IMG/VR virus record: IMGVR_UViG_3300029787_000046
Coordinates: 1 to 57,813 of that record
DNA: 57,813 nucleotides
Direction: 5' to 3' (one strand)
Origin: a virus
A program made the translations under genes and the position numbers. The notes under the pieces were generated by a model. It was not told where the DNA came from, searched no databases, and saw only the letters and a program-made list of their open reading frames with translations. Position 1 is the stretch's first letter, and every line of letters begins with the position of its first letter. Shown piece after piece: positions 145 to 57,813 of the stretch.

Positions 145-182
145 CTGTAGTTATACTCAACTTTATCTAACTCAACACGCAT
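1..182 (-). CDS. Junction gene, 5' part (conserved small phage protein)
   Basis: This is the start of a protein of about 126 residues whose remainder is at 57471-57669. It begins with ATG at 182-180, overlapping the stop of the thymidylate-synthase homologue as TAATG, so translation is probably coupled. The first residues read MRVELDKVEYNYSE and lead straight into the MITIVEKVAQ segment seen at the other end of the window. The gene is cut only by linearisation and is not broken. See the entry at 57471 for the body of the protein. Confidence 0.85.
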   Translation of the reverse strand, partial: MRVELDKVEYNYSEMITIVEKVAQVDVTKLHKAEQSYGNSWKQRGGVGAFMMLARKWDRL

Positions 183-1228
183 TATGTTCTCCTCTCTAAC
201 CATTCAAGACACGCTTTACGCCATGCCCTATCGTTAATTGTTGTTGCCTCTATTATGGCTTCATCCATAAATAGTTTGTTTGTATCTTTACTTTTCCATG
301 CTTTCCAAGATTTAATCATAGGTGTTGCTGTTGTATTCAAGTAATCATTTATTGCACCTGTGTCTTCAACTCTTCGCCTATTATTGTGCTTTAATCTTGT
401 TTTACTGGCCTCGTTATCACCTCCCCATCTTTTAAACCACTGGCTAAGTTCTTGATCAAAAGTAGCAGGGTTATCTATTAATGGTGGAGAGGCATAGCTT
501 AACCCATCATCTGCTATAGTAAGATACGGTTCATAATCTAACGGTAAATTATCTAACTTTTGTAATGTGTCTACATAAGCATGAAGATTATTACTAAACT
601 GATAGTAAATCCCCACCCGAAGTCCGCACATTGTTGCCATATACTCTAGTAAAAAAGACATATGCACAGCGTTAGCTCCGTAAGCTCCCCAGATCATATC
701 ATTACTACGATTAGCTACAGTCATATTTAGTTTGCCCTTACGAGACCAAAAATAAATCTGGGTATTACAGGGGTAGTCTTTGCCATCATTATCTTCCTGC
801 AAATCTTCCCATGGATCCCACATCCCAATAACTGTTCTTCTATCATTTGGATAATTCCTCAGCCTATGGATAGCAGTTAATAATTGATCTTTTGTAAACC
901 ATTCTCTCCATCTAAAACCATATGCCCCATGAAAATGCTCACCATCATCACTGTAAGTATTTATCCTGCCATTAAACTGGCTAATCCATTCTACATCATT
1001 ACGCCCTGCTAACATCCATAAAGATTCCATAAAGTGGAAGTATGGGTTGGCATCTCGTTGTGGATAAAACAGTACTCGTTCACGGCTATCTGTATAAGTT
1101 GTCATAACAGGGGTGGGGAACTCTAAAGCTGCCCCATTACGAGTTTGCACTTCTACTCCGTTAACTTCTAATGCTTGTTTAGCTAGGTATAACGCCTCGC
1201 TTACGTTTCTTGCGTGTATCGACTGCAT
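182..1228 (-). CDS. Thymidylate synthase family enzyme (dTMP synthase or dUMP/dCMP hydroxymethylase)
   Basis: This 348-residue protein of the ThyA fold should transfer a one-carbon unit from methylene-tetrahydrofolate to C5 of a pyrimidine nucleotide. I see paired arginines in NDRRT (about 129-132), the nucleophilic cysteine in DYPCNTQ (Cys154), NRSNDMIWGAYGANA (173-187, with the phosphate-binding Arg-Ser and an Asn where ThyA has its base-reading Asn177) and SNNLHAYVD (212-220). The sequence around the catalytic centre departs strongly from bacterial ThyA. The retained Asn favours a dUMP rather than a dCMP substrate. Phages with hypermodified thymine make 5-hydroxymethyl-dUMP with a relative of this enzyme, and the genes just upstream (glycosyltransferase, ADDT-like protein) make that role plausible here. 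A plain dTMP synthase cannot be excluded from sequence alone. Confidence 0.85.
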   Translation of the reverse strand: MQSIHARNVSEALYLAKQALEVNGVEVQTRNGAALEFPTPVMTTYTDSRERVLFYPQRDANPYFHFMESLWMLAGRNDVEWISQFNGRINTYSDDGEHFHGAYGFRWREWFTKDQLLTAIHRLRNYPNDRRTVIGMWDPWEDLQEDNDGKDYPCNTQIYFWSRKGKLNMTVANRSNDMIWGAYGANAVHMSFLLEYMATMCGLRVGIYYQFSNNLHAYVDTLQKLDNLPLDYEPYLTIADDGLSYASPPLIDNPATFDQELSQWFKRWGGDNEASKTRLKHNNRRRVEDTGAINDYLNTTATPMIKSWKAWKSKDTNKLFMDEAIIEATTINDRAWRKACLEWLERRT

Positions 1229-1251
1229 ATTAGCCTCCTCGATGGTTGTTA

Positions 1252-2571
1252 TTATAGTTGGGTATGGTAACCTTGTTGTGTATAGTCATAGCGTTCTTCG
1301 AGTAGCGTCGAAAGCCTCGGTAAACCAAAGAACTGTAGGTTTTTATTGCAATCGATAATTAGCTGAATATTCTGTTCTGGGTGACCTTTTTCAAGAAAAT
1401 GCGTTGGTTGAGTTACAATGTCTACATATTCTTGCGCTACGTTCCGCATATCAAACTTATTTAACAACCCTAGATTATTGTGTCGCATTGTTTCCCACTG
1501 TTCCTTATTAGTTAGCCCCTCATTTACTATATCCCCAAACTCTTCGGGTGTAGCTGTATGGGGTATCTCTATGTAGTTTTGCCCAGACTTAAATATCTGG
1601 CTGTTTTTCATACCCAAATCTGTAGCCATTGGTACAGCACCTTTGATCATAGCCTCTACCGTTGTACGATTAAAATGTGCGCCATAGTCAGAATACTTTT
1701 TAGAAAAGCTAGGGTCTATCTGTAGCTTAGTTTCACCAAGCAATCGCAATACTTCTTCATTAGGTACAACACCATGATAACTCATACCTGTATTGAGGGC
1801 GATTGCCCATATACGGTTACCCTGTGCATCAAAATACTTTGGTTTGCATTTATCTTTACTTGTCATATACCTGTATTCAATCCCTGCCCCACCGACTACA
1901 ACAGTCTCTTTTATAAACGGTACAGCACGAACCAAAGTATCCACTCGTTTCCACGCTTTAAATATTTGGATTGCCAATGCACCACTACGTTGATCAAAAT
2001 CATAACCAAAATCCCCATGTATTTTAAATGGGTTTAAGATTAACTTGCGTGGAATATCTAAATATTGTGCCGAGTTATAGGCACTTTCATGAACGCATAC
2101 AGCGGCATGAAAATATTCTGAAACAGAGATAAGGTGTGGATACAACTTAGGTAAATTGCCATCATGTATGATAGCAATGTTTTTGCTACCATGATCATAC
2201 AGATCTAGCCAAGCTTTGATTTCTGTGTTATCTTTATTAAGAGTAGGTACAGGTATATGCCAAAGAACGGCATCGTATTTACTACACTTTTCTTTAAATA
2301 GCTCTCGTGCCTGTTTGCTCACATAAGGTATCTTGGGTATACCCTTCCACCCTCGTGCTTGGTGAAACTTATACCCTGTCCCACCTTCTAAAGATTTATA
2401 ATCTCCATCCCTACCGCGGATTGGTGATCTATTAGAAACAGCACTTTTAGGAACGAGCATACAAAAGTCTACTTCATGCCCTAACTCTTTTAAGCCTTTA
2501 GCCAAATACTCAGCATGGTTAATTATGCCACCATAATCTTGTATTTGGAATAGTGTCATTAAGAACTTCAT
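1252..2571 (-). CDS. GT-B glycosyltransferase (GT4-like)
   Basis: This 439-residue protein has the two-lobed look of a GT-B glycosyltransferase. The N-terminal lobe has DYGGIINHAEYLAKGL (12-27, acceptor side) followed by Rossmann-type strands. The C-terminal lobe has FNRTTVEAMIKGAVPMATD (about 318-336), the usual nucleotide-sugar-binding Glu-rich helix region. Its ATG overlaps the stop of the ADDT-like gene as ATGA, so the two are probably translated together. Located between that gene and a thymidylate-synthase homologue, it is a candidate DNA glycosyltransferase acting on 5-hydroxymethyl-pyrimidine. A role in sugar transfer to host surface polymers is the main alternative. The family assignment is firm; the acceptor is inference. 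Confidence 0.8.
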   Translation of the reverse strand: MKFLMTLFQIQDYGGIINHAEYLAKGLKELGHEVDFCMLVPKSAVSNRSPIRGRDGDYKSLEGGTGYKFHQARGWKGIPKIPYVSKQARELFKEKCSKYDAVLWHIPVPTLNKDNTEIKAWLDLYDHGSKNIAIIHDGNLPKLYPHLISVSEYFHAAVCVHESAYNSAQYLDIPRKLILNPFKIHGDFGYDFDQRSGALAIQIFKAWKRVDTLVRAVPFIKETVVVGGAGIEYRYMTSKDKCKPKYFDAQGNRIWAIALNTGMSYHGVVPNEEVLRLLGETKLQIDPSFSKKYSDYGAHFNRTTVEAMIKGAVPMATDLGMKNSQIFKSGQNYIEIPHTATPEEFGDIVNEGLTNKEQWETMRHNNLGLLNKFDMRNVAQEYVDIVTQPTHFLEKGHPEQNIQLIIDCNKNLQFFGLPRLSTLLEERYDYTQQGYHTQL

Positions 2572-3479
2572 TCTACAGTCCCTTTCTTAAAGTTATCGTT
2601 TGATAATATATTGGCGTTATATCTACTCCTAGGCGTACCTTGTCCCAAACGCACACGTTCGTATTTATCCCACTCACATAAGCTATGCTCTATAGTACGC
2701 ATATCTACACGAGCTACAGGCACATGAGGTTTACAATGCTTAGGAGCTTCAGCTAATAACAGTTGCATTTCAGTATTTGCTACTTGTTGATTCATGCCTT
2801 TTTTAAGGTCACGCAAATGTATACGGTTTAATCCTCGCTTGGCTCCAGGACCTGCGTTAGCCCACGAGAATTGATCTTTCGCGGCTTCCAACACAGGTGT
2901 GTAGTTGAGATCCGTAACCACCTCGTACGACATAAAACCTCCCCCTCCCCACCCTTTATAGGAACCCATCGCTTGGTGGAGCTCTTGGAGGGATAAAGAT
3001 TCATTGGCAATCTTGGAAAGTGCCTCCTTTTTCTCCCAAATGGGCGCAAGAAAATAGTCAACTACGACCTCCGATTTTGGTGCTTTTAACCCTTGATTTG
3101 TGATTATATACGCACCAGTAAAAGTTCGTAAACCTTTTGACAACCGATCTTCAATCAATTGTTTAGTTTTAGTTTTATCCCACCCATCATCTTCGTACAC
3201 CCACTTGTGAGCATCGGCAAACTCACTTGTGCCGATCATACGAAATAAGCAACAGTTAAAAATAATTTCACCATGTGGACGGTTGTGGTTTGGTTTAGTC
3301 CAGTTCTCACGCATCCACACAGTTACTTTATCATTTTCACGAAAAGGGTTTGTAAACTTGTAGTCTTGAAGAATTCTATCTTCTGTCCACGGTGGTATTT
3401 CGTCGGCTACCCTACGTTGGTAAATAGAATGTCTTTCATTTATCCAACCAAAGTATCTTTCTACAGCTTCGGTGTCCAT
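2568..3479 (-). CDS. ADDT / 5-hmdU-kinase helical-domain family protein (formerly aGPT-PPlase)
   Basis: This 303-residue protein carries the signature of the alpha-helical family first described as alpha-glutamyl/putrescinyl-thymine pyrophosphorylases. Members were later linked to 5-hydroxymethyl-dU kinases and amino-acid:DNA transferases that hypermodify thymine in phage DNA. Visible landmarks are YFGWINERHSIYQRR (9-23), PWTEDRILQDYKFTNPFREN (30-49), an EIIFNCCLFRMIG helix (71-83), GGGGFMSYEVVTDLNYTP (178-195) and the glycosylase-like NAGPGAKRGLNRI (208-220). No P-loop kinase domain is fused to it, unlike the full-length kinases. It lies between a glycosyltransferase (4-base overlap) and an unknown gene (3-base gap). 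It should act on the DNA itself; which reaction it performs cannot be read from the sequence. Confidence 0.75.
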   Translation of the reverse strand: MDTEAVERYFGWINERHSIYQRRVADEIPPWTEDRILQDYKFTNPFRENDKVTVWMRENWTKPNHNRPHGEIIFNCCLFRMIGTSEFADAHKWVYEDDGWDKTKTKQLIEDRLSKGLRTFTGAYIITNQGLKAPKSEVVVDYFLAPIWEKKEALSKIANESLSLQELHQAMGSYKGWGGGGFMSYEVVTDLNYTPVLEAAKDQFSWANAGPGAKRGLNRIHLRDLKKGMNQQVANTEMQLLLAEAPKHCKPHVPVARVDMRTIEHSLCEWDKYERVRLGQGTPRSRYNANILSNDNFKKGTVE

Positions 3480-3482
3480 AGC

Positions 3483-4124
3483 TTACTCCTCTAACTTTAT
3501 GGCTCCTGCCTTTACAGCAATTTTAATATCTACCCCACCTCCTGGAGAAGGATCTAAAGCACGAAGTTTTTCCATCGCTTCAGCTACAGTAGTGCATCCC
3601 ATAACAACCTGCATATTACGATGACGATTTGTACCTGAACGGATTGGGGGGTCTACCATAAGAGAAACTATTTTAGTAGTTTTTTCAAAACGAGGGCGCA
3701 CCTCTTTTTCTGCTTTTTGCGCTTTATTATTAAATTGATCTACATGAATTGTAGTAGCGTATGGAGCATCGGTATCATTCATTTGGTTTTCCTTTTTCCA
3801 TGGTTTAACACAAAACAGCACGAGTTCATGGAGCTTCTGTGCCGCTATCTCTTTATTCTGAAACTTATTCTTCATATTTCGGTATGTAGTAAGGTCAGTA
3901 AAAAACCTTTGGTGAGCTTTTTTACTGTTGAGTAAAATGCTGAGCCATGTGCCTTCAAGCTCATCTTGTTGCCAATTATCTATTAATTGTCTGGGTTCTT
4001 TGTCGCTGTAAACCATGCTGTACTGGTCTATAAACTTGCAATCTTTCATAGAGGCTAACGAAGTAAAAGACAGCACTTGGTAAGGGCTGTTCTCATTGTT
4101 ACTTTCACATATCGCATAGTGCAT
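3483..4124 (-). CDS. Unknown protein at the head of the modification group
   Basis: I do not recognise this 213-residue protein. The first 110 residues are helical with conserved-looking tryptophans and a Lys-rich stretch. The last 70 form a separate basic module starting near KTTKIVSLMVDPPIRSGTNR and containing CTTVAEAMEKLRAL, a helix-turn-helix-like layout that could bind DNA. It is preceded by a TAGAAAGGG ribosome-binding leader and a hairpin (4149-4182), so it probably starts its own translation block. It is followed three bases later by the ADDT-like gene, so a part in DNA modification or its regulation is possible by context only. Confidence 0.65.
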   Translation of the reverse strand: MHYAICESNNENSPYQVLSFTSLASMKDCKFIDQYSMVYSDKEPRQLIDNWQQDELEGTWLSILLNSKKAHQRFFTDLTTYRNMKNKFQNKEIAAQKLHELVLFCVKPWKKENQMNDTDAPYATTIHVDQFNNKAQKAEKEVRPRFEKTTKIVSLMVDPPIRSGTNRHRNMQVVMGCTTVAEAMEKLRALDPSPGGGVDIKIAVKAGAIKLEE

Positions 4125-4205: not shown

Positions 4206-5234
4206 TTAAGCTACGTTAGCATACTCAATAGCTTTTGTCAATGCTTTACGTTTAGTGTTTGCACCAGACCCAAACCATGCAGAGTGCAACGCATTACCTT
4301 CAGCTAAAGATTTTTTCTGGTGATCAACTACATAGGTCACAGCATTTACTGCTCCCCACCAAGTGCCACGAGCGGAAGATAGGTTTGCTCCTGGACTTGT
4401 TTCTACTGCCTCATGTACAAGTTCTGCTGTACGAGCAAACTCTTGGTGTAACGGAGGTAACGCATTTTGATTAGGTGCTTTAGCTCGTTCAATCAATAAA
4501 TTTGGTTGTAACAGCTCAGCAATAAAGTTGCTCACATCGAAGTCTTTAGCAGTTTTGCTTGCCAAGAACTCAGACTGTTCTTTGAAGTTTTGCATTTGGT
4601 GTCCACTAATGCCCAGAGCTTCTTCTGCTGCTTTGTGGATTTCTTCATCGAACATTTGTAAGTGTAGCACACGGAAACGCGAACCTTCTGCGTTCAATGC
4701 CATAGTGAGTGTATTATTGCAGACAACACGTATCGGTGTAAACATAACCGTCATCGCTTTGCCTACTTGATGGCTGTTGTTTAATAACAGATAACCACCT
4801 ACTTCATCGCCACCTGCGAGAGCAAACTCATCTTTAAGTTTTGCTAACCCCCAAATGTCTTTGCCATCTTTTAAACTACCTGCCGTTTCCATAGTCATGG
4901 AACCTGCTTCGGTAAACTTTTTGAAAAAGTCCATAACTTCTGAGTTTTGGAAAGGAACATAGCCTTCACCACATGGAGATAATATTTTGTTGTCGCTATC
5001 ACGAACAAGAAAATAATTGTCGGGACAACGCAAAAACCCTGCCTCGCCTGTTGGGTCTACAATATTCCAACAGTTTGGTTTGTCAACTGTGTAAGCAGGT
5101 CGCTTACTAACTGTCCAATCAATCTGGGCAGCTTTTAACATTTGGTCGGGCGACATATTGTCGTCAACCTTTTTGCCTAGACCATGCCAAGGAACTTGTC
5201 CTGCATAAGCCATCGTTTCTACTTCATGTGCCAT
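4206..5234 (-). CDS. DUF932 phage/plasmid-like protein
   Basis: This 342-residue protein matches the DUF932 family. It opens with MAHEVETMAYAGQVPWHGLG (1-20), the typical start of these proteins. It also has the conserved GYVPFQNSEVMDFF (91-104), a central beta-rich core with GGYLLLNNSHQ, and a C-terminal TWWGAVNAVTYVVDH helix. The family occurs in phages, plasmids and conjugative elements next to replication and recombination genes. Its molecular function is not established. The gene begins after a GAGAAAGGAG leader, 20 bases below the 5255 gene. Confidence 0.85.
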   Translation of the reverse strand: MAHEVETMAYAGQVPWHGLGKKVDDNMSPDQMLKAAQIDWTVSKRPAYTVDKPNCWNIVDPTGEAGFLRCPDNYFLVRDSDNKILSPCGEGYVPFQNSEVMDFFKKFTEAGSMTMETAGSLKDGKDIWGLAKLKDEFALAGGDEVGGYLLLNNSHQVGKAMTVMFTPIRVVCNNTLTMALNAEGSRFRVLHLQMFDEEIHKAAEEALGISGHQMQNFKEQSEFLASKTAKDFDVSNFIAELLQPNLLIERAKAPNQNALPPLHQEFARTAELVHEAVETSPGANLSSARGTWWGAVNAVTYVVDHQKKSLAEGNALHSAWFGSGANTKRKALTKAIEYANVA

Positions 5235-5254
5235 TTAAATACTCCTTTCTCGAG

Positions 5255-5515
5255 TTAATGTGTTGGCATTGTTACGACAGGTAAGCTGTCGTATGTTTTA
5301 AACGGTATGTCGATCCACGCATCAGAGTCTGCTGTTAATAATAAACGAACACGCATCTCCACATCGTTGTGTGGCATTGTCCATACAATCGGGTACTTAT
5401 TGTCTTCATCAAGCTCTGATAAATACTTTGGTTCAAGCGTACGATTACGATTAGTGCGAATCGCAGTTTTATTAGCCTTTACCAAAAGGTCTTTGGTGAA
5501 ATATTTTACCTGCAT
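5255..5515 (-). CDS. Small unknown early protein
   Basis: This 86-residue protein is basic at the N-terminus (NKTAIRTNRNRT) and acidic in the middle (SELDEDN), with no motif I recognise. It is the first gene behind the sigma70-like promoter at 5548-5575 and has the leader TAGAAAGGG before its ATG. It therefore starts a transcription block that continues into DUF932. Confidence 0.65.
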   Translation of the reverse strand: MQVKYFTKDLLVKANKTAIRTNRNRTLEPKYLSELDEDNKYPIVWTMPHNDVEMRVRLLLTADSDAWIDIPFKTYDSLPVVTMPTH

Positions 5516-5547
5516 TTTATCCCTTTCTATGTTTTTAATGCTACACC

Positions 5548-5575
5548 ATAATACACGCAGTGTTAGTCTTGATAA
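5548..5575 (-). promoter_or_regulatory. Sigma70-like promoter, class 2 (copy 1)
   Basis: On the minus strand: -35 TTATCA (5570-5575), 16-base spacer, -10 TATTAT (5548-5553). The -35 and the bases after it, TTATCAAGACTAAC, match the promoter at 53267-53294 in 13 of 14 positions, and the spacer and -10 box are the same. It lies 33 bases upstream of the ATG of the 86-residue gene. Confidence 0.7.
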
Positions 5576-5596
5576 GCGTTTATTTATCTTGTTTGT

Positions 5597-7114
5597 TCAG
5601 TAGGGCAACGCATATCCTTGACTATACATAGGATGTATCAAATGTATATTATTTATGGCTCTGGTAAGTCCAACATAAAATACTCTTGTTTCATCTTCTT
5701 CATAGGTATGTATTTTACGCCACATTGAGTATGGTCGTTTCATTGTATCAGTTAATAGCATTACGTTAGTTGCTTGAGCACCTTTAGCTGAATGAATAGT
5801 AGAGATTCGTAGTCGAGGTGTTTCGGTCAAACTTTCACCTTTTCGTAAACAAGCTTTTATATACGTCTTATCTCTTTGATTTATTTTGCCTAGCCCGATA
5901 TCCCATGGATGGTTGTGCAACAAACCGTGATTGTTTTGTAACTCTTGCAAACTGTAGAAAGAACCTTCCTCACCATCGGGCATAGTTTTGCAGCCATACT
6001 TTACTTGACTGTTTAGCATCATGTGTTTGTACACGAGCAAGACTTGTTCTTTACTGAGCTTGTTGCCTTCTCGTAAATATTCCCATAATCTGACTGCTTC
6101 TAAAACCTTACTGTCAATACTTTTAGATCCATTGTAGATATATAAATGTCCTCGCCTTCTTACTTCTTCCTCTATTTGTTGAGCTCCTCGGGTAGTTCTA
6201 CTTAGTAGTAACCAGTCACCTTCTGATAAACTCACCTCTTCAGAATGGCGATGCCAAGTTATATTACCTTCTTCTTGTCTTGGTTCAAACTCTTTTTCCC
6301 TGCGTCCCACTATTGTTTTGATTACATTGTGGCTGAGTGTATGGTGCGAAGAAGGAATACGATAACTTTTATTTAGTAATGTCACATCACCTTCAAGACC
6401 TACAAAGTAATTTACATCTGCTCCTGCCCAACGGTAAATAGCTTGGTCATCATCCCCTGCTACATAACATATCTTGCTTTTTTGTTCTAACTGTCTTACC
6501 ATTTCCCACTGCAAAGGTGACAGGTCTTGGGCTTCATCTATAAATACTACTTCTAATTTAGGGCAAAGGTCACGCTCTACAAAAGCCTCTAACATTCCGG
6601 TATAATCATATAGCCCATAAGAGTTTTTCCAATGCTCTATACCTCTGTTTACATAATCAACCCTAGCCCAATCTGTTTTCAATGGTACGATACTGTCATT
6701 GTAAATCTTGCGTAACGGTTGGCGTAGTATACGAGCAATATTAATAATTTCAAGGAATTTGTCACCATAGCCAAAGTCTTTGTATGGTCCTTGTTCTACA
6801 TTACCTCCTCCATAAAACTTTCCTATCTTTAACCAATCAGCTATTTCTTGGTACTTATCTGGTGTAATCACTTGTGAATGGGTCAAACCTGCTTGCAAAA
6901 AAGCTAGACTATGTAGAGTTCTAAAGTAAGGTAACTCTTTTTTAGATATATTAAACTTGGTACAAGCTCTTTCTATAGCTTCCTGTGCTGCTCTTCTTGT
7001 AAAAGCAAAGTACCCTATACGGTCTGGCGGTACACCAGAGGCAAGGTATTGTTCAACTAAGTTAAGAAGTTTAGTTGTCTTGCCTGTTCCTGGAGGTCCG
7101 AGCACGATGTGCAT
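5597..7114 (-). CDS. UvrD/Rep-type superfamily 1 DNA helicase
   Basis: This 505-residue SF1A helicase is shorter than cellular UvrD. Motif I is LGPPGTGKTTK (5-15), followed by the Q-like YFAFTRRAAQEA, motif II VVFIDEAQDLSPLQW (about 189-203), motif III AGDDDQAIYRWAGAD, motif V ISTIHSAKGAQATNVMLL and motif VI ETRVFYVGLTRAI near the C-terminus. All ATPase motifs are present, so it should be an active 3'-5' translocase that unwinds DNA ahead of the phage polymerase or during recombination. It overlaps the primase gene as TAATG (7114), so primase and helicase are made together. Confidence 0.9.
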   Translation of the reverse strand: MHIVLGPPGTGKTTKLLNLVEQYLASGVPPDRIGYFAFTRRAAQEAIERACTKFNISKKELPYFRTLHSLAFLQAGLTHSQVITPDKYQEIADWLKIGKFYGGGNVEQGPYKDFGYGDKFLEIINIARILRQPLRKIYNDSIVPLKTDWARVDYVNRGIEHWKNSYGLYDYTGMLEAFVERDLCPKLEVVFIDEAQDLSPLQWEMVRQLEQKSKICYVAGDDDQAIYRWAGADVNYFVGLEGDVTLLNKSYRIPSSHHTLSHNVIKTIVGRREKEFEPRQEEGNITWHRHSEEVSLSEGDWLLLSRTTRGAQQIEEEVRRRGHLYIYNGSKSIDSKVLEAVRLWEYLREGNKLSKEQVLLVYKHMMLNSQVKYGCKTMPDGEEGSFYSLQELQNNHGLLHNHPWDIGLGKINQRDKTYIKACLRKGESLTETPRLRISTIHSAKGAQATNVMLLTDTMKRPYSMWRKIHTYEEDETRVFYVGLTRAINNIHLIHPMYSQGYALPY

Positions 7115-8637
7115 TATATTATATCATTTTCAACAGGTAGTTGAGGCAAGGCCATTTCTGAGTCATCTGTTTCAAAATAGTTTTGTGGCAGTGACCAAAC
7201 ATGGATACCTTTCCCCCTTACTCTCCAAAACATTTTTTCTGCTTGTAAGTCCTGTAATCTTAAAGTTATTTTGTTAGAAGTATAGTGGTTAAAATCGTTT
7301 ACAGATAAATGTTTCTTTAAATCTTTTATTTGAAAGTATACCCTTGTTTCTGCCCAGACCGCAACACCTTGCAGAATATCTTCACGCTCTTCACCTTTAG
7401 CTCTTTCCGCAGCGAAAGCATGAAGTAAATCTTCAAACTCACCTTTGAACGTAGCATCAGGCGGTACTTCCACAATAGTCAAATTATCTAACAACAGTTG
7501 TATGCGTGTCTGCCATGCACGTTGATTAACTATAACAGGGAACTTATTTATTTGTGACACACACTCTTTTTGAAACTGTGCTTGACTGGTTAAACCATTG
7601 GTACTAAGCTCTAATCGTTCGCCATCTACATTAAGAATCCAGATAGGGGGGTCACCGTCAATTTTAGTAAGGCTAGACATATCATTGCCTATGCCACTTG
7701 GTCCTACGCCATGCTTCCTTGTTTTACATAACTCTTTATCACAAAAAGGTTTTATGGGTTGGTCTTCACATTTATAAAAGTAATCTTTCTTTTTTAATTG
7801 TCTGATTGTATTGCCTACCTCACCATGACTTAGCGGTGGGCTGAGGTAATCCACATTGTAGCGTTGGACTAACTGCTCCCAATTATCTTCATCAAACATT
7901 CTGGCATATACACCAAGATTAAATAGAGCATTGTTTCGAGAACCCTCGCCAAATCCTTTACTGCATAAGTGCTGTAAACAAGGTGGTCCTTCTTCTAATA
8001 CTCCCTCTTTTGTACCAAACCCCATATTAAGTTTACGAAACTGATTTGGAGTTATAATATAATCTTTACAGTATTCTATAAACTCTTCTGGCGTTAGTGT
8101 TTCTGCATTTTGGTCAAACGCATACCGAGTAGATTTAGATCCACTGAAGTAAGGCATATTAAGAAAGTTGCCCGTATCGCCCCTATCTAGCAATATTGTT
8201 GTTTGTTTTGGGAATATTTCACTCCCTGCAAAACCAAGAGCTGCACTTAGCTCGGTTAATCTGCGCTGCATATCTTCAGCTTCTACAGGCTCACTTAAAA
8301 ATATCCATACATGAGCTCCACCGCTTTTAGTCCTGCCCACTACAGCAGGGATTTTATTTTTAGCTAATGTTTTGATTAAATCTTTATGACTAACACTGTA
8401 TTCATCAATATCTATCGCACCCCAATGGCAAGTATTATCACTTTTAATTGGTATGATTCCAAGACCTGTGCCACCTTTTAAATGGTCTTCCCACATAGCT
8501 ATCGTTGTAGGTTCACGAATAACTTTTGCTGTGCCTTGTTTCTTTCCGTCTGTTTCTCTATTACTCTTTACAACATATGTGCCATGAGCAATATCGCTGC
8601 CTTTAAATAAATCGTAAAAATCTTGTGCAAGTGACAT
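7114..8637 (-). CDS. Archaeo-eukaryotic-type (AEP) DNA primase
   Basis: This 507-residue primase-polymerase has an N-terminal catalytic domain. It shows CHWGAIDIDEY (70-80, metal-binding Asp75 and Asp77), VVGRTKSGGAHVWIFLSEPV (99-118, the conserved S-x-H-like strand) and a downstream YFSGSKSTRYA segment. Beyond it are cysteine-rich stretches, GPPCLQHLCSKGFGEGSRNNAL (about 219-240) and KPFCDKELCKTRKHG, that resemble PriCT/PriL-type metal centres. The last 150 residues look like a winged-helix end. Such AEP primases replace DnaG-type enzymes in many marine phages. With the downstream SF1 helicase it would prime synthesis for the phage PolA. Confidence 0.85.
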   Translation of the reverse strand: MSLAQDFYDLFKGSDIAHGTYVVKSNRETDGKKQGTAKVIREPTTIAMWEDHLKGGTGLGIIPIKSDNTCHWGAIDIDEYSVSHKDLIKTLAKNKIPAVVGRTKSGGAHVWIFLSEPVEAEDMQRRLTELSAALGFAGSEIFPKQTTILLDRGDTGNFLNMPYFSGSKSTRYAFDQNAETLTPEEFIEYCKDYIITPNQFRKLNMGFGTKEGVLEEGPPCLQHLCSKGFGEGSRNNALFNLGVYARMFDEDNWEQLVQRYNVDYLSPPLSHGEVGNTIRQLKKKDYFYKCEDQPIKPFCDKELCKTRKHGVGPSGIGNDMSSLTKIDGDPPIWILNVDGERLELSTNGLTSQAQFQKECVSQINKFPVIVNQRAWQTRIQLLLDNLTIVEVPPDATFKGEFEDLLHAFAAERAKGEEREDILQGVAVWAETRVYFQIKDLKKHLSVNDFNHYTSNKITLRLQDLQAEKMFWRVRGKGIHVWSLPQNYFETDDSEMALPQLPVENDII

Positions 8638-46658: not shown

Positions 46659-47081
46659 TTAAGCTTTGGCTTGTGGCTCAACTACCAATTTAACGTAGCC
46701 AGTACCATAAACTGAACTGCTTGGAGTATAACCACCGTTTAACATTGCCAATAAACAAATAGGTGATTTAGTGCTGTGACCCAAAGGCTTGGCAGCATTA
46801 AGAATTGAAAACAAGCTGTGACTACCGTCAACACCTTTCAACAACCAATCTTGAATTGTAGCGCGGACACCGCCAGTTTTACCAGTGTATCCAAATGGTA
46901 CGGGCTGATCAGAATCTAACTTAACATTGTCAAGTGGAACAACCTGAACATTATGTATATTGCCACCTGCTTCAGCGTTAACGAACGCCCAGATGTCAGA
47001 GTAGTTAAGAGGAGAACCAGTATTTTGTAGCGTTGCTACTGCGACTGATTGAGTTGCGGTTTTTGTTTTTGCTTGTGCCAT
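46659..47081 (-). CDS. Unknown protein, paralogue 1 of a tandem pair
   Basis: I place the start at 47081 (MAQAKTKTATQ) because TAGAAAGGG lies just before it. The 140 residues share their whole length with the next gene: both have a YxDIWxFVxxxAGGN helix, VVPLDNVKLDSDQPVPFGYT / VPLDNVDLKSDAPVPFGYGG, GGVR.xIQDWxLxGVDG, PLGHS.K.P and GGYxPSS. I do not recognise the family. It is separated from the second copy by a terminator and leader, so each is expressed on its own. The short, rigid fold with a conserved VDG...GHS pattern suggests a small binding protein. Confidence 0.75.
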   Translation of the reverse strand: MAQAKTKTATQSVAVATLQNTGSPLNYSDIWAFVNAEAGGNIHNVQVVPLDNVKLDSDQPVPFGYTGKTGGVRATIQDWLLKGVDGSHSLFSILNAAKPLGHSTKSPICLLAMLNGGYTPSSSVYGTGYVKLVVEPQAKA

Positions 47082-47180
47082 TTTATAACCCTTTCTACGG
47101 TTTATGACTGTAACCATTATTGGCTACATATTCTTTCTACTATAGTTCACTATTATTGTAAACCCCTTTTGTGAACTTTT

Positions 47181-47496: not shown

Positions 47497-47922
47497 TTAA
47501 GCTTGAACTACGAGCTTGACATATGGTGTCATCCAGTATTTACTAGACGGTGAGTATCCACCATGCAAGAGCGCGTGTAGACAAACAGGCTTTTTGCGAC
47601 TGTGTCCTAATGGAGCGGCTTTAGTGAGAACCGCTTTAAGTGTGAGATCGCCATCAACACCGCGTAGCATCCAGTCTTGTATTTTCTGGCGTACACCCCC
47701 GGAACGTCCACCGTAACCAAATGGCACAGGCGCGTCAGACTTGAGGTCAACATTGTCAAGAGGTACGATTTTCACGTTTGCCTCATTGCCACCTGCCTTA
47801 GTCTGGACAAAATTCCAGATGTCATCGTAAGTAAGCTCTTGGTCAGTGACCATTAACTCAACGGATTTTACCACCTTTTTAGTGGCAGATTTAGGGGAAG
47901 TCTTTTTAGCTGTATTAGCCAT
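47497..47922 (-). CDS. Unknown protein, paralogue 2 of a tandem pair
   Basis: This 141-residue protein, Lys/Ser-rich at the first 20 residues, then shows the same domain as paralogue 1 (TYDDIWNFVQTKAGGNEANV, IVPLDNVDLKSDAPVPFGYG, GGVRQKIQDWMLRGVDG). It is preceded by GTAGAAAGGAGCTAATC and followed by its own terminator. The N-terminal tails of the two copies differ most, and the cores are clearly homologous. The function is unknown. Its place between the two terminase genes may link it to packaging or its control, but this is inference. Confidence 0.75.
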   Translation of the reverse strand: MANTAKKTSPKSATKKVVKSVELMVTDQELTYDDIWNFVQTKAGGNEANVKIVPLDNVDLKSDAPVPFGYGGRSGGVRQKIQDWMLRGVDGDLTLKAVLTKAAPLGHSRKKPVCLHALLHGGYSPSSKYWMTPYVKLVVQA

Positions 47923-53323: not shown

Positions 53324-53584
53324 TTAGCTAGAGAAATCATTATCTTTCTTCTCTGTCCAGTAAGTTCCTGTCAAATATCCACACGATGAGCAACCAATCT
53401 GTCTTGTTTTTTCATTGAGTAAGAAAAAGGAATTATCTCCACATAAAGAACAGACAAGAACATCAACCTCGTAACATTCTACGGTGACGTTTTTCTCTTC
53501 AGAATGGGATCTTTTTTCTCTTGTGAATGGGATAACATTACTTTCTCCATGAATGGGGGAACTTTTCTTTTCTTCCATGTACAT
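53324..53584 (-). CDS. Zinc-ribbon protein overlapping its neighbour
   Basis: This 86-residue protein has VLVCSLCGDN (about 43-52) and IGCSSCGYLT (about 63-72), a four-cysteine zinc ribbon, with a flexible N-terminus (SNVIPFTREKRSHSEEKN). Its first 35 codons are read in a different frame from the end of the 53479 gene (106-base overlap). The ribbon itself lies outside the overlap. Confidence 0.65.
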   Translation of the reverse strand: MYMEEKKSSPIHGESNVIPFTREKRSHSEEKNVTVECYEVDVLVCSLCGDNSFFLLNEKTRQIGCSSCGYLTGTYWTEKKDNDFSS

Positions 53585-54003
53585 AACCTCGCTTTCTCAC
53601 CGATGTAATAGTTATGATAAGCAAGTAACGGTGTCGGTGATTTGTACTCATCAGGCATAGCCTGAGGGTGTTTCGTTACTCCTCTTGCGGTTAATTCTAC
53701 AGGGGGGCATCGTAGTATGGCAAGAATTCTTTCACAAGCATGGATCTTTTCATACCTGAAAGTATACTCTTTACATAATGCAATACCTAGACGCCAGAGC
53801 CATTTGTAGTTTTCTACAGTTTGTCCTGCCCATAATGTGCAAGGATGTTTTTGATGAACAGGTAAATATGGTCCTTCGGCATTATGTCGCCAATGAACAG
53901 TGCTGAGCATTTGGGTAGATTCTAATGGCATTTTAACGACGTGTTTATCGCAATGATATTGAGCACAAGTTTCGTGGTTATAATCTAGTAAGAATATATT
54001 CAC
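53479..54003 (-). CDS. Conserved phage protein with AQYHCDKHVVKM motif
   Basis: In this 174-residue protein, NIFLLDYNHETCAQYHCDKH followed by VVKMPLESTQML, then HPCTLWAGQTVENYKWLWRL and RYEKIHACERIL, is a widespread phage family. It is sometimes labelled 'pyrimidine dimer DNA glycosylase', a label I do not consider proven. Conserved Cys and His residues suggest metal or catalysis. It uses a GTG start overlapping the previous stop (GTGA). Confidence 0.7.
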   Translation of the reverse strand: MNIFLLDYNHETCAQYHCDKHVVKMPLESTQMLSTVHWRHNAEGPYLPVHQKHPCTLWAGQTVENYKWLWRLGIALCKEYTFRYEKIHACERILAILRCPPVELTARGVTKHPQAMPDEYKSPTPLLAYHNYYIGEKARLCTWKKRKVPPFMEKVMLSHSQEKKDPILKRKTSP

Positions 54004-54306: not shown

Positions 54307-54735
54307 TTAATTCATTTGACTTTTTTTATTTGCTCTTTTTACTCGGTCTCGTAATTCGGTCGAGGAGAATCCATGTCCACGATTATTGTAATGCAGTTTT
54401 ATGTTTAGATCTTTATGCAGGTGTTCTCCGCTTAAAGGTCTGTTCCTATACTCTTCGCCTACTATGCGGATGTTTACTCTAAGTATCTGCAATAGCTCGT
54501 GCATATCGTGTTCAGTATGATAAGGTAAAACATAATCAACGTATTTTATCGCTTCTAATTGTATAAAGCGTTCATGAATAGATTGCACTGGTTTGTTTTT
54601 CCATTCACGCTCTTCACTTGGGTCTATATGTAACCCTACGATTAAAAAGTCACATACTTCGCTTGCTTCTTTTAACATCAGTACATGACCTGCGTGTACT
54701 AAATCAAATGTTCCACAAGTAAATCCTACAATCAT
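54307..54735 (-). CDS. Glycerol-3-phosphate cytidylyltransferase-like nucleotidyltransferase
   Basis: In this 142-residue protein, GFTCGTFDLVHAGHVLMLKE (4-23) bears the HxGH site and GFSSTELRDRVKR (about 122-134) the SSTxxR-type motif of the TagD/RfaE family. It should couple CTP (or ATP) to a phosphorylated substrate. In phages such enzymes may feed surface modification or supply activated groups; with DNA-modification genes in the same unit, the latter is worth noting but unproven. Its length matches the family. Confidence 0.82.
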   Translation of the reverse strand: MIVGFTCGTFDLVHAGHVLMLKEASEVCDFLIVGLHIDPSEEREWKNKPVQSIHERFIQLEAIKYVDYVLPYHTEHDMHELLQILRVNIRIVGEEYRNRPLSGEHLHKDLNIKLHYNNRGHGFSSTELRDRVKRANKKSQMN

Positions 54736-54938
54736 TACTTGCCTCCCTCTTTTGGCATTTTATAATCCAGTTCATACTTTTCATCTGTTGTATCAACAAT
54801 TAGTTTAACTTTTTTTACTTTTTTACTTTCTAATAATTCAGTGAATTTTTCAGATATAAATTTAAAATAGCCATCTTTTCGATTATACCCTGTAGTTGGG
54901 GAATACATAATCACATATTTAGGATCTTTTTTAGCCAT
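54735..54938 (-). CDS. Small unknown early protein
   Basis: This 67-residue basic protein starts MAKKDPKYVIMYSPTTGYNR and has a beta-like C-terminus (VKKVKLIVDTTDEKYELDYK). It shares single bases with both neighbours, so it is translated within the operon. Its function is unknown. Confidence 0.6.
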   Translation of the reverse strand: MAKKDPKYVIMYSPTTGYNRKDGYFKFISEKFTELLESKKVKKVKLIVDTTDEKYELDYKMPKEGGK

Positions 54939-55486
54939 TAAACATCATCACATAATATTTTGATTATTTCAGAAACAGGTTCAAAAATCAATTCGTTTCT
55001 GTACGTTTTATTTAAATAATCTACTCCTCGTAAAAAAACATCTTCTGCCATACCATTGCCTTGTTGCATTAAACGATAACAATGCAATACAAGCTCTAAT
55101 TTGTCGGCAATATCGCACATTTTTTTATCTTCTTTAGTAATTTTGTGTACAGTATCACCCACCCTAATAGATTGTTCATAAGCTCTTTCAGCTTTTACCA
55201 TTAAATCATTAATCTTAGGGTAATTCCATTTAGTCGTAGCAGGTACATCACCTACCTCGGCTTCTGCCACATCGTGATATAATAAATGCAAGATGCAGTT
55301 TTTACTTGCGTCAGGGTAAAGGGTTTGCAGTATAACTATCGCCCTCCAAGTATGAGCAGCTACATTTTGCCCATCCCCTAACTCTGGTCGTGTATGATAC
55401 CGAACAACGTGTCCACCTTTTAACCGAGCGTGTAGCTTGGCTAAGTTTTCATTTCGCTGTGGTTGTCTTTTAATCCTCTTGTCCAT
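54938..55486 (-). CDS. HD-domain 5'-nucleotidase (YfbR-like)
   Basis: I set the start at 55486 (MDKRIKRQPQR) because GGAGAAACC precedes it; this overlaps the polymerase gene by 46 bases. The 182 residues show the HD-hydrolase set: QNVAAHTWRAI (His45), LLYHDVAEAEVGD (His71-Asp72, with acidic residues after it) and CDIADKLEL (Asp125 or Asp128). YfbR-like enzymes dephosphorylate deoxynucleoside monophosphates, which fits with remodelling the nucleotide pool for replication or base replacement. Confidence 0.82.
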   Translation of the reverse strand: MDKRIKRQPQRNENLAKLHARLKGGHVVRYHTRPELGDGQNVAAHTWRAIVILQTLYPDASKNCILHLLYHDVAEAEVGDVPATTKWNYPKINDLMVKAERAYEQSIRVGDTVHKITKEDKKMCDIADKLELVLHCYRLMQQGNGMAEDVFLRGVDYLNKTYRNELIFEPVSEIIKILCDDV

Positions 55487-57357
55487 GGTTTCTCCGTGAA
55501 TGTTTGTTTTGCTTCCCCCCAATTTGGTCCAAACTCTGCGTCGACTACGGAGGGTACTTCTAGTTTGACGCAATCCTGCATTATCTCCGTAATCTTTTTA
55601 GCTTGGTCTTCACTTTCTACGGAGACATCTAGTTCATCGTGTACTTGAATCATGGGAAGTATACCTTCATCAGCTAAAGCAACCATCGCAGCTTTAGTTT
55701 GATCGGCAGCACTTCCTTGGATAAGTTTATTAAGAGCCTTATAAGTAAACGCTCGTTTGATTGCAGGACCATGTTCGGCATAAGCTTCTTGGTAAGTCAT
55801 TGGCTTCCAACTCCCATACTTGTTTGGTTCCCATTTATCAAACCTACAACGTCTGCCTAGAACGGTACGGATTACACCTTTTTGACTTGCTCTGTTTATA
55901 GCGTAATCACTTAACTCTCGTACGAAGGGTACTTTTTCATGATATTGAGCAAACAACTCTTTTGCATCTTCAAACTCTAAACCTAAACTTGCTGCCAACT
56001 TTTTAGACCCCATACCGTAGAACAACCCGAGGTTGATATCTTTAGCCTGTTTACGAGGGACGCCCACAATATCTGCTGCCATTTGGTGGAAGTCTGTTCG
56101 TGCATCTGCATTGTATTGTTCTGCAAAGTCAGAAGCCCCTCTGAAGCCCATGAGCTTGCTGTAATGCACAACTATGCGCGGTTCTTGGCTAGAGTAATCG
56201 AACGCACCCCATAATGTGTCTTGTTCAGGTATAAATAGGCTACGTATCATTGGACCAATTTCGCCATGCCTAGCAGGGATTTGTTGAAGATTAGGGTTAC
56301 TGTAACTAAATCTACCTGTGACAGTACCGCCATCGTCAGAACGCAGAGGGTGTAGCTCAGCATGGATACGCCCATTTATCTGGTGCTTTAATATTGTATC
56401 TACAAAAGTAGTTCTTGCTTTATTAAACTCTCTAGCTTGTACAATCATTTGTGGTATTTTGTGGGGATGGTTGGCTAAGAATCCTTTAGTAAAGCTTGGT
56501 GCTCCTGTTTTTTCTGTTTTACTATACTCTAAACCTAAAGCATCAAATGCTTTTGATACACTCTCAGCAGCCCACAACTCTACAGCAATACCTGATTGTT
56601 TTTTAATTTCGTCAAGTAATTTCTTTTCACGTTGCTCTAAATCAACTTTAATACGTTCGGCTTTTTCTAAATCTACACAGACGCCACGTTGTCGCATAGG
56701 TATTATCGTTTTCAATACTTTTAATTCTAGGTCAAAAATATCGCCAATATCTTCTTTTATGATTAGCCCTTTAAAATGTGTCCACAAACGTAAAGTCAAC
56801 GCTGCATCTTGTTCTGCATAAGCTCCTACATAAGCAGCAGGGAGTTTAAACATCTCACTTTTAGCATTGATACCAAAAGCCTCTGCTGCTTCTCGTAGTT
56901 CTTTTTCTGATTTACGCTCTTGCAAATAATCTCTGCCAATAGCGTTTAAGGCATAGCTAAAACGATTTTCATCTAACAAAGGGGCAACAACCATTGTGTC
57001 TACTATTCTTCCTTGGATAGTTACACCTTCAGCAAGCAACCACCCAACATCATAAGGAGCGTTATGGAAAATATAATCACGATCTTTTGAACATACCTCT
57101 TGTAACCACCTGATTGTTGTTTTGGGGTCAAGATTAGAACCTAACTCGTGTCGTATAGGAAAGTACCATTGGTCGCCATCTACTGCTACAGCGATACCTA
57201 TAATATATCCATCTTTCCTAGCCCACCCTGAACCCATTGTTGTAAGGTTAGGATCTCTAGTTTCTAAATCTATAGCTACTTCTCTAGCATGGCTAAGATC
57301 TGGATAACCATCGGGCATAACCCACTCAGTCGGGGGTTGAAATAAAGGAAACTGCAT
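55441..57357 (-). CDS. DNA polymerase I (family A) with 3'-5' exonuclease
   Basis: This 638-residue protein has an exonuclease domain with AIDLETRD (Asp30, Glu32), HNAPYDVGWL and YAEQDAALTL (Tyr180, Asp184). The polymerase has motif A FDYSSQEPRI (Asp387), motif B RKQAKDINLGLFYG (Arg435, Lys439, Leu443, Tyr447) and motif C QVHDELDVSV (Asp574, Glu575). All catalytic acids are present. At the position of E. coli Phe762 it has Leu443, an unusual residue with known kinetic meaning. There is no 5'-3' nuclease domain and no DnaJ-type insertion. It is the main replicase of the phage. Confidence 0.95.
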   Translation of the reverse strand: MQFPLFQPPTEWVMPDGYPDLSHAREVAIDLETRDPNLTTMGSGWARKDGYIIGIAVAVDGDQWYFPIRHELGSNLDPKTTIRWLQEVCSKDRDYIFHNAPYDVGWLLAEGVTIQGRIVDTMVVAPLLDENRFSYALNAIGRDYLQERKSEKELREAAEAFGINAKSEMFKLPAAYVGAYAEQDAALTLRLWTHFKGLIIKEDIGDIFDLELKVLKTIIPMRQRGVCVDLEKAERIKVDLEQREKKLLDEIKKQSGIAVELWAAESVSKAFDALGLEYSKTEKTGAPSFTKGFLANHPHKIPQMIVQAREFNKARTTFVDTILKHQINGRIHAELHPLRSDDGGTVTGRFSYSNPNLQQIPARHGEIGPMIRSLFIPEQDTLWGAFDYSSQEPRIVVHYSKLMGFRGASDFAEQYNADARTDFHQMAADIVGVPRKQAKDINLGLFYGMGSKKLAASLGLEFEDAKELFAQYHEKVPFVRELSDYAINRASQKGVIRTVLGRRCRFDKWEPNKYGSWKPMTYQEAYAEHGPAIKRAFTYKALNKLIQGSAADQTKAAMVALADEGILPMIQVHDELDVSVESEDQAKKITEIMQDCVKLEVPSVVDAEFGPNWGEAKQTFTEKPWTRGLKDNHSEMKT

Positions 57358-57526
57358 TACTCTTCACTTTCATCGGTTGGTTGCATTTATGACATTTAGC
57401 CCACTTATTTTTCAAATTGCGAAAAGTAACCTCCTTTGTAGCCCCACACTCACAAACGGCGATTAGCACTTCATCTAGTTTTCCATTCGCATCTGTCTTC
57501 GAGGAAGAGGTCTGGCTCTTGGTCAT
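57326..57526 (-). CDS. Small zinc-ribbon protein before polymerase
   Basis: The start is set at 57526 (MTKSQTSSSKTDANGK) with GGAAGG before it. In 66 residues it has VCECGATKEVTF and WAKCHKCNQPM, a four-cysteine zinc ribbon. It overlaps the end of the junction gene by 56 bases and the start of the polymerase gene by 32. It may contact nucleic acid beside the polymerase. Confidence 0.65.
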   Translation of the reverse strand: MTKSQTSSSKTDANGKLDEVLIAVCECGATKEVTFRNLKNKWAKCHKCNQPMKVKSNAVSFISTPD

Positions 57527-57813
57527 TCGTTGTTTCCTTCCGAATAATTTCTGCTTCAACTAACATAAGATACCTGCGTAAATCTTGTATATCATCCAAG
57601 ATACCTTCAGCTCTAGTGTCTTTTTCAGCAGCAAGAAAGATGTCATAGTTGCTTTCATTCACTTGCTTTTCAAGCCTGTCCCACTTTCGGGCAAGCATCA
57701 TGAACGCACCTACGCCACCTCTTTGTTTCCAACTGTTTCCGTAACTCTGCTCTGCCTTGTGTAGTTTTGTAACATCTACTTGTGCTACTTTTTCTACGAT
57801 TGTAATCATTTCA
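57471..57813 (-). CDS. Junction gene, main part (conserved small phage protein)
   Basis: This is the body of the protein whose start is at 1-182; joined, it is about 126 residues. Its core, SYGNSWKQRGGVGAFMMLAR and KWDRLEKQVNE, ends in GILDDIQDLRRYLMLVEAEI. This is a pattern I know from phage proteins beside thymidylate synthase genes and reminiscent of Nmad1/DUF1599 (nucleotide-modification-associated) or all-alpha NTP pyrophosphatase helices. The link is tentative. The acidic and basic residues in D-D-I-x-D-L-R-R could form a metal site. The ORF from the ATG at 57809 alone would be 112 residues. Confidence 0.8.
   Translation of the reverse strand, partial: EMITIVEKVAQVDVTKLHKAEQSYGNSWKQRGGVGAFMMLARKWDRLEKQVNESNYDIFLAAEKDTRAEGILDDIQDLRRYLMLVEAEIIRKETTNDQEPDLFLEDRCEWKTR
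57670..57813. repeat. Terminal direct repeat, right copy
   Basis: Same sequence as 1-144 with one substitution (G at 57759). See the left copy. Confidence 0.95.

Follow-up and report, generated by a model that had tools for sequence, protein, structure and literature searches.

A phage gene cassette predicted to glycosylate 5-hydroxymethyluracil without a kinase, with an exchangeable glycosyltransferase gene

The source of the DNA analysed here is a marine-type phage, and it carries a gene cassette that probably makes glycosylated 5-hydroxymethyluracil without a kinase, ADDT or amino-acid chemistry; the glycosyltransferase gene is exchangeable, so that the sugar coat on the DNA would be changeable. 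A sequence-only reading of the window (the whole stretch analysed, 57,813 nt) had proposed four adjacent genes at 182-4124 as a thymine-hypermodification cassette. All four open reading frames were recovered there, on the minus strand (Table 1), each with a Shine-Dalgarno-like sequence on its 5' side and with a 4-base overlap between the HMUDK_hel and glycosyltransferase genes. Comparison of the window ends revealed that bases 1-144 recur at 57670-57813 with one mismatch. Given this terminal repeat the contig is circularly closed and represents a genome of about 57.7 kb, which makes gene absences informative and implies that the cassette continues over the join into DNA polymerase I. A search of named phages with the cassette at the DNA level yielded no match.

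Table 1. Features of the cassette and its surroundings in the window
Feature	Position	Strand	Length	Basis
Putative dUMP hydroxymethylase-type member of the thymidylate synthase (TS) superfamily	182..1228	-	348 aa	phrog_5131 (PHROGs), 362 bits; active-site pattern
GTB1-family GT-B glycosyltransferase, predicted GT4-like fold	1252..2571	-	439 aa	Predicted structure
HMUDK_hel (PF18723, formerly aGPT-PPlase1), predicted helical HhH-glycosylase-like fold	2568..3479	-	303 aa	Pfam
Conserved upstream neighbour	3483..4124	-	213 aa	C-terminal module kept in 24 relatives
Nucleotidyltransferase, HldE/RfaE-domain-II/TagD-like	54307..54735	-		CTP_transf_like, 61.7 bits
HD-domain YfbR-like 5'-deoxynucleotidase	54938..55573	-		Scores above cut-off to YfbR-like (34.8 bits) and HD_3 (32.3 bits)
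DNA polymerase I family replicase	55441..57357	-		52.7% identity to the Pelagibacter phage HTVC023P polymerase
Small conserved protein encoded over the circular join, between the genes for the hydroxymethylase and DNA polymerase I	57471..57809	-		

The proteins of the cassette

The TS-family protein matched the Pfam profile Thymidylat_synt (83 bits) and is 42.5% identical over its full length to the product of the thymidylate-synthase gene of phage M6. In E. coli ThyA numbering, W80 is deleted, W83 is replaced by Y, L143 by D, H147 by N and L172 by W, while C146, R126, R166, N177, H207 and Y209 are kept, so that the catalytic Cys, the phosphate-binding Arg and the uracil-type Asn at 177 are all present. 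The combination of D143, N147, W172 and a missing W80, a comparative criterion derived from the present alignment and not a published one, is common to the window protein, SPO1 gp29 and M6, is nearly the same in ViI, and differs in ThyA and T4 Td. Judged by these residues, the enzyme is well supported as being of the dUMP hydroxymethylase type and not a thymidylate synthase, which strengthens the original proposal that it could make 5-hydroxymethyl-dUMP.

The assignment of a GT-B glycosyltransferase agrees with the predicted structure (AlphaFold2; pLDDT 85.9, pTM 0.87), in which the protein is a GT-B fold with two Rossmann-like domains over its full length; at the sequence level, the Pfam match to Glyco_transf_4 (22.2 bits) stayed under the cut-off of 28.5. 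Structural comparison placed 898 of 998 compared chains at a VIA Z of 8 or higher, the best reaching 25.7 over 316 residues, and the top rows were GT-B enzymes. HepE (25.7) and T4 DNA alpha-glucosyltransferase (AGT; 25.1) were tied, PimA and TarM were matched as well, and a profile match to the donor domain of HepE was obtained (E 9e-4). Considering that the AGT match is tied with GT4 enzymes acting on lipids, sugars and small molecules, the fold is no proof of a DNA acceptor. Within the GT4 E-x7-E motif the first Glu is replaced by a non-acid (A298). Scans of Pfam, PHROGs and NCBIfam linked GTB1 to none of the DNA-glucosyltransferase families, the TAGT profile (PF20691) had no match in the window, and searches of named phages gave no match to GTB1 or to GTB2, a second GT-B-like family described below. 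A search of bacterial genomes with GTB1 returned a single contig, which has a Flavobacteriaceae MAG label but is probably viral and bears the whole HMUDK_hel-GTB1-hydroxymethylase cassette.

The third protein had been labelled as ADDT/HMUDK-helical. The HMUDK_hel part of this label was confirmed (170.7 bits against a cut-off of 25, covering positions 1-276 of the 281 in the profile; 170.4 bits in a second search), whereas the ADDT part fell away at the level of sequence family: PF18724 had no match in the window in a search that gave 159.7 bits for M6. Around 60 columns are invariant between the window protein and its homologues in M6 and Sonora, including the stretches WANAGPGAxRGLNR and RxIEHxLCExDKYxRV; the ViI row of the HMUDK_hel tree, which was in the wrong reading frame (branch length 10), was disregarded. 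In ViI, separate genes encode HMUDK_hel and the kinase, with about 49 kb between them. Structural comparison with the ADDT type had been named beforehand as a check. The best neighbour of the model (AlphaFold2; pLDDT 90.3) was the PaMx11 gp46 glycinyltransferase, at a VIA Z of 10.5 and an rmsd of 4.2 over 226 residues, values that may arise by chance for helical proteins; DNA glycosylases followed at about 10, and the next neighbours fell to 3.5. Foldseek alone gave no significant match for this model. The predicted fold may be related to that of the ADDT-type glycinyltransferase and of HhH DNA glycosylases.

Membership of the fourth gene in the pathway was not supported. Its protein belongs to no family in Pfam or PHROGs, profile comparison with Nmad5 (the M6 gp56 homologue) gave nothing, and the single tie to the pathway is its position as a conserved upstream neighbour. 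The small protein across the join has no Pfam family either, and its position is kept in most relatives. As to the genes beyond the polymerase, the deoxynucleotidase may lower the level of dTMP competing with hmdUMP, and in M6 an HD protein adjoins the thymidylate synthase gene. The nucleotidyltransferase (rfaE_dom_II 76 bits, under cut-off), present in 5 of 27 genomes, could possibly feed the supply of sugar donor, a weakly supported role.

An exchangeable slot in place of the kinase

The 5-hmdU kinase (PF18748) was found in none of 22 related records, in a search in which M6 was positive, and in none of eight further records that were searched without a positive control of their own. Within the closed window, the only Walker A motif in any frame lies in UvrD. 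ADDT was likewise absent from the relatives, with M6, ViI and Sonora positive; these three phages carry both the kinase and ADDT. Neither of the two was located close to the cassette in any of the 84 non-identical loci that have both HMUDK_hel and the hydroxymethylase. The proposal of a GT-B glycosyltransferase in place of the P-loop kinase gained support.

In 81 of these 84 loci exactly one of GTB1 (40 loci), GTB2 (16) and TAGT (25) was present, although the loci come mostly from one phage group and the co-occurrence counts are not independent. TAGT is a family of phage DNA glycosyltransferases (PMC13216743); it occurred in 6 of 27 genomes, none of which had GTB1 or GTB2. A slot class with 'radical SAM only' was rejected as an artefact of gene picking, as an HMM search finds TAGT in those loci too. 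In three loci a 338-aa protein, X338, fills the slot instead of a glycosyltransferase, and comparisons of X338 with GTB1, GTB2 and solved structures gave nothing.

The replacements are precise. One pair of contigs shares 96% identity as far as the end of HMUDK_hel and 92% onwards from the start of the hydroxymethylase, but the glycosyltransferases in between differ; in single-gene swaps of the glycosyltransferase the flanks are 91-96% identical, and the UvrD tree forces at least four GTB2 changes. Every copy recovered in searches seeded with the glycosyltransferases had HMUDK_hel and/or the hydroxymethylase in its neighbourhood, even at identities as low as 31% and where the gene order was rearranged. 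Moreover, in MW202897, a separate circular phage in which no HMUDK_hel was found, TAGT is paired with a dUMP-type hydroxymethylase. The swapping of the sugar-adding enzyme in one slot suggests that these relatives alter the coat of their DNA as a way of escaping the defences of bacteria.

Proposed pathway and its alternatives

The pathway that we favour would start with the conversion of dUMP into 5-hydroxymethyl-dUMP by the TS-family enzyme, a step well backed by sequence, after which the product would be raised to the triphosphate and put into DNA by the adjacent phage polymerase. After replication, the GT-B enzyme is predicted, with strong comparative support, to move a sugar from a nucleotide-sugar onto the hydroxymethyl group of 5-hmdU, giving a base-J-like product. 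More speculatively, HMUDK_hel might use its HhH-glycosylase-like fold to bind or flip 5-hmdU in DNA and offer it to the decorating enzyme at hand, which would be the kinase in phages of the M6 type and, in the present cassette, the glycosyltransferase. Related phages would then change the sugar coat through the exchangeable glycosyltransferase module. A sugar on hydroxymethyl-uracil, the final base given as an example in the sequence-only reading, has gained support as the likely product of this predicted chemistry. Besides the tied AGT fold match, the non-acid in the E-x7-E motif and the non-independent counts given above, it speaks against this best reading that HMUDK_hel is named after a kinase that is missing here, and that X338 takes the place of a glycosyltransferase in three loci.

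HMUDK_hel could instead be a transferase with an ADDT-like fold that adds another group to 5-hmdU via an unknown or host activating enzyme, the glycosyltransferase decorating that group or supplying an activated intermediate, in which case the final base would not be a simple glycosyl-hmdU. The fact that its best structural neighbour, PaMx11 gp46, is a 5-phosphomethyl-dU glycinyltransferase fits this scheme, as do a short IExxLCxW-like motif in common with M6 ADDT, sub-threshold PF18724 matches that fall inside HMUDK_hel genes, and motifs kept across the kinase-linked and glycosyltransferase-linked versions. Nevertheless we consider it unlikely, given that no known kinase was found in the genomes to supply a phosphorylated substrate, and that MW202897 couples TAGT to the hydroxymethylase with no HMUDK_hel detected, so that glycosylation may not need HMUDK_hel.

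A DNA of plain 5-hmdU, with a glycosyltransferase that acts on a host surface glycan or virion protein and is in the operon by accident, appears less probable still. Cell-surface glycans are common targets of GT4 enzymes, and HepE, PimA and TarM fit the model no less than AGT does; against this stand the link to HMUDK_hel and the hydroxymethylase, which outlasts sequence divergence and gene-order change, the exact one-for-one gene replacement and, as indirect support for a role on DNA, the slot shared with TAGT. An ordinary thymidylate synthase function of the TS-family protein, with unmodified phage DNA and other roles for HMUDK_hel and the glycosyltransferase, is very unlikely: the generic Pfam and NCBIfam names point that way, although all NCBIfam scores lie below the cut-offs, yet the active-site pattern goes with SPO1 gp29, ViI and M6, against ThyA and T4 Td.

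Relation to known systems and significance

The M6/ViI pathway comprises a dUMP hydroxymethylase, the 5-hmdU DNA kinase, HMUDK_hel and ADDT. The present cassette resembles it in the type of hydroxymethylase, in the conserved columns of HMUDK_hel and in having the genes for DNA polymerase I and an HD-domain protein close by, and departs from it in the window genome being without a detected kinase or ADDT and in the glycosyltransferase between HMUDK_hel and the hydroxymethylase. To our knowledge, every thymine hypermodification with HMUDK_hel that has been characterised proceeds via the 5-hmdU kinase and an amino-acid transferase. In T-even glucosylation of hmC, as predicted here, a hydroxymethylated pyrimidine nucleotide is made first and the sugar is added to DNA later; AGT has the same GT-B fold (Z 25), and TAGT itself occupies the slot in relatives. 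By contrast, the window hydroxymethylase is of the uracil type (N177 kept) and that of the T-even phages of the cytosine type, and by sequence GTB1 falls into none of the DNA-glucosyltransferase families. The predicted product, a uracil whose hydroxymethyl group bears a sugar, is like the base J of kinetoplastids (beta-glucosyl-hydroxymethyluracil), but hmdU would arise at the nucleotide level via a TS-family enzyme, whereas base J arises via oxidation of T in DNA.

The kinase-less form with an exchangeable glycosyltransferase appears to be new. The partnership of TS and HMUDK_hel in pelagiphages is already published: HTVC023P-type pelagiphages, of the same wider phage group, have the same TS and aG/PT-PPlase1 partner genes, and the pair was treated as an M6-like system (PMC9599517, 2022). 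Its relevant passages mention neither the absence of kinase and ADDT, nor the GTB1 and GTB2 families, nor glycosyltransferase exchange in one slot.

It is conceivable, at somewhat less than an even chance, that the lineage replaces thymine with glycosylated hmU and switches the sugar by slot swaps, so that in natural populations the DNA changes its 'serotype' against sugar-specific host defences, and that HMUDK_hel serves generally as an adaptor which presents 5-hmdU and does not belong to the kinase. If true, the kinase-free, sugar-ended route would widen phage thymine chemistry, account for HMUDK_hel travelling with two different decorating enzymes, and offer a naturally occurring case of one decorating gene being exchanged for another, with GTB1 and GTB2 as two uncharacterised candidate DNA glycosyltransferase families.

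Layout of the operon and its phage

The four minus-strand genes of the cassette lie exactly where the sequence-only reading had placed them, with RBS-like sequences and tight spacing, and their coordinates are collected in the table below together with those of other features. The terminal repeat, which contains one mismatch, indicates that the contig is circularly closed (~57.67 kb). Across the join the operon goes on to encode a 112-aa protein, DNA polymerase I, an HD-domain protein and a nucleotidyltransferase. Polymerases of the Pelagibacter phages HTVC023P and HTVC027P and of uncultured 023Pt_psg01 and DSL-LC04 share 51-55% identity with this one, which places the phage near the HTVC023P-type podoviruses. 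In a published study of HTVC023P-type pelagiphages, a thymidylate synthase (TS) and aG/PT-PPlase1 are already described as partner genes, with a glucosyl-transferase nearby in some (PMC9599517). The name aG/PT-PPlase1 is the old one for the HMUDK_hel family, as used in records matching P0003. Our literature search yielded no account of a kinase-less HMUDK_hel-glycosyltransferase-hydroxymethylase cassette or of the exchange described below; the main thymidine-hypermodification papers were outside its coverage and priority is thus unproven.

Coordinates of the cassette and of other features
Feature	Position	Strand	Remark
P0001, hydroxymethylase-type TS relative	182-1228	minus	
P0002, GTB1 glycosyltransferase	1252-2571	minus	
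P0003, HMUDK_hel	2568-3479	minus	
Fourth gene	3483-4124	minus	looks modular; in L055, L070 and L071 only a ~80-aa module matches, as a separate small ORF
Terminal repeat	1-144; 57670-57813		
Pyrimidine dimer DNA glycosylase family protein (PF03013, T4 EndoV type)	53479-54003	minus	close to the polymerase; kept in most relatives
Two adjacent, clearly similar small proteins (~140-150 aa)	46659-47117; 47497-47922	minus	resemble a tandem duplication
FkbM-type methyltransferase	L059:8988-9728		after GTB2 in the slot; also in L060
TAGT, dUMP-type pyrimidine hydroxymethylase and HD-domain protein	MW202897.1 (L190): 5001-7299		

The proteins P0001, P0002 and P0003

P0001 scored 83 bits against the Pfam thymidylate synthase model and 362 bits against phrog_5131, and is 42.5% identical to the M6 thymidylate-synthase gene from end to end. 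It was aligned with T4 Td, T4 gp42, SPO1 gp29, the ViI and M6 proteins and E. coli ThyA (a sequence in full-length agreement with PDB entries). P0001 retains the catalytic Cys146, the Arg residues and the uracil-type Asn177. Asp143, Asn147, Trp172, an aromatic residue at position 83 and the absence of Trp80 are common to P0001, M6, ViI and SPO1 gp29, which is a dUMP hydroxymethylase; Asp143 is present in T4 gp42 as well, and not one of the substitutions at 143, 147 and 172 occurs in the true synthases (ThyA, Td). The same pattern was found in distant loci. By alignment, the assignment of P0001 as a dUMP hydroxymethylase is well supported, in line with the original proposal of a hydroxymethyl-dUMP-type TS relative.

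P0002 gave weak sequence matches (22 bits for Glyco_transf_4 and a profile E of 9e-4 for HepE), and its predicted model (pLDDT 86) has an unambiguous GT-B fold, which agrees with the glycosyltransferase originally predicted. The best matches of the model were HepE (Z 25.7) and T4 DNA alpha-glucosyltransferase (Z 25.1 and 25.0, including the complex with hydroxymethyluracil DNA), but PimA, TarM and other GT4 enzymes tie with these, so that the fold alone is no proof of a DNA acceptor. On our reading of the alignment, P0002 has the GT4 features GG near the N-terminus, HD at 136-137, K205, K208/R209 and E306, and Ala298 takes the first acidic position of the E-x7-E motif.

P0003 had been labeled an ADDT/5-hmdU-kinase-helical-domain protein, and its sequence contradicts the ADDT half of that label: it matches HMUDK_hel (PF18723) with 170.7 bits across nearly the entire profile, and the ADDT profile (PF18724) found nothing in the window, although the same model recognizes M6 (160 bits), ViI (199 bits) and Sonora (84 bits). 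Around 60 alignment columns are invariant between glycosyltransferase-linked HMUDK_hel proteins and the M6 and Sonora homologs, including WANAGPGAxRGLNR, with a helix-hairpin-helix-like look, and an RxIEHxLCExDKYxRV helix. Foldseek returned no significant match for the predicted model (pLDDT 90). In VIA-align the 5-phosphomethyl-dU glycinyltransferase PaMx11 gp46 ranked first (Z 10.5), level with a DUF2419 queuine-salvage enzyme and with HhH DNA glycosylases, and the scores then fell to Z 3.5, which makes a shared DNA-glycosylase-like fold likely for the predicted structure. ViI has distinct genes for HMUDK_hel and the kinase, ~49 kb apart, and HMUDK_hel is thus a protein in its own right, its name notwithstanding.

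Occupancy and exchange of the glycosyltransferase slot

Loci were seeded on HMUDK_hel and on the glycosyltransferase families GTB1 and GTB2, and HMMs were then run over them. Both HMUDK_hel and hydroxymethylase were present in 84 non-identical loci, which carried GTB1 (40), GTB2 (16), the phage DNA-glycosyltransferase family TAGT (PF20691, 25, with a radical SAM/SPASM protein) or the protein X338 (3). In none of the 84 did the scan detect two glycosyltransferase families together, a kinase or ADDT. Genome-wide, TAGT was present in 6 of 27 records, never alongside GTB1 or GTB2. The T2/T6 enzyme that puts glucose on glucosylated hmC belongs to TAGT (PMC13216743). GTB2 and GTB1 are distant, co-linear relatives (hhalign, 308 columns, E 4e-4, at a probability of only 35%). 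In searches seeded on the glycosyltransferases, each GTB1 or GTB2 copy was near a hydroxymethylase and/or HMUDK_hel within contig reach; the association persists at 31-42% identity (L158-L164), with a rearranged order glycosyltransferase-HMUDK_hel-hydroxymethylase in L162-L164.

X338 (332-338 aa; L076, L078, L082) lies between HMUDK_hel and the hydroxymethylase, in the place of the glycosyltransferase of related loci, and has no relative among the families or solved structures searched. The FkbM-type methyltransferase suggests an O-methylated sugar. In TAGT-type loci (L012, L018, L023 and others) the radical SAM/SPASM protein follows TAGT, and a small protein bearing an NrdR-like zinc ribbon often precedes TAGT; the radical SAM protein accompanies GTB1 (L161) and GTB2 (L180, L182) as well. 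A complete HMUDK_hel-GTB1-hydroxymethylase cassette was found in L187 (PANU01000095.1), binned as a Flavobacteriaceae MAG and probably a viral contig within that bin.

The glycosyltransferases have been exchanged at gene borders. Over the 7.9 kb that end in the last bases of HMUDK_hel, L032 (GTB2) and L025 (GTB1) are 96.4% identical, their glycosyltransferases are unalignable, and the alignment resumes at the hydroxymethylase start (92%). An all-pairs screen recovered this case between two GTB2 and two GTB1 contigs. Likewise, L060 (GTB2 and FkbM) and L061 (GTB1) are 94% identical as far as the HMUDK_hel end, and well-supported branches in the tree of the neighboring UvrD helicase force at least four GTB2 changes. 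Such a one-for-one swap is expected if GTB1 and GTB2 perform one function on a common substrate and differ in the result, e.g. in the sugar.

Candidate route to a glycosylated base

The established amino-acid route cannot run here with known enzymes, given that neither its 5-hmdU DNA kinase (PF18748) nor ADDT was found. The kinase model recovered M6 but matched none of the 22 related virus records scanned with it, nor any of 8 further records, a search with no internal positive control (elsewhere the model detects ViI and Sonora). ADDT was not found over the cut-off in the relatives either, and across all stop-to-stop frames of the closed window the sole Walker A motif is that of the UvrD helicase.

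The candidate sugar route has an independent counterpart in MW202897 (circular, 40 kb, from Manatee Spring), a separate phage in which TAGT is paired with a dUMP-type hydroxymethylase and an HD protein, and another candidate for glycosylated hmU. HMUDK_hel has no match anywhere in that record, so that alongside a dUMP hydroxymethylase sugar transfer may not need it; this speaks for HMUDK_hel as an accessory factor that presents the base in the window cassette. Membership of the fourth gene in the pathway, as originally proposed, is not supported; the gene is a conserved neighbor. A YfbR-like deoxynucleotidase may lower dTMP, and an HldE/TagD-like nucleotidyltransferase, found in only 5 of 27 genomes, could supply a sugar donor.

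The genes with their order and families, the missing kinase and ADDT, the co-occurrence and the exchange are observations, and the chemistry is inferred from them. The TS-family enzyme very probably makes 5-hmdUMP, HMUDK_hel might, more tentatively, present the 5-hmdU base, and the glycosyltransferase would quite probably transfer a sugar onto 5-hmdU in DNA. From what is generally known of phage modification, the product would protect the phage DNA from host nucleases.
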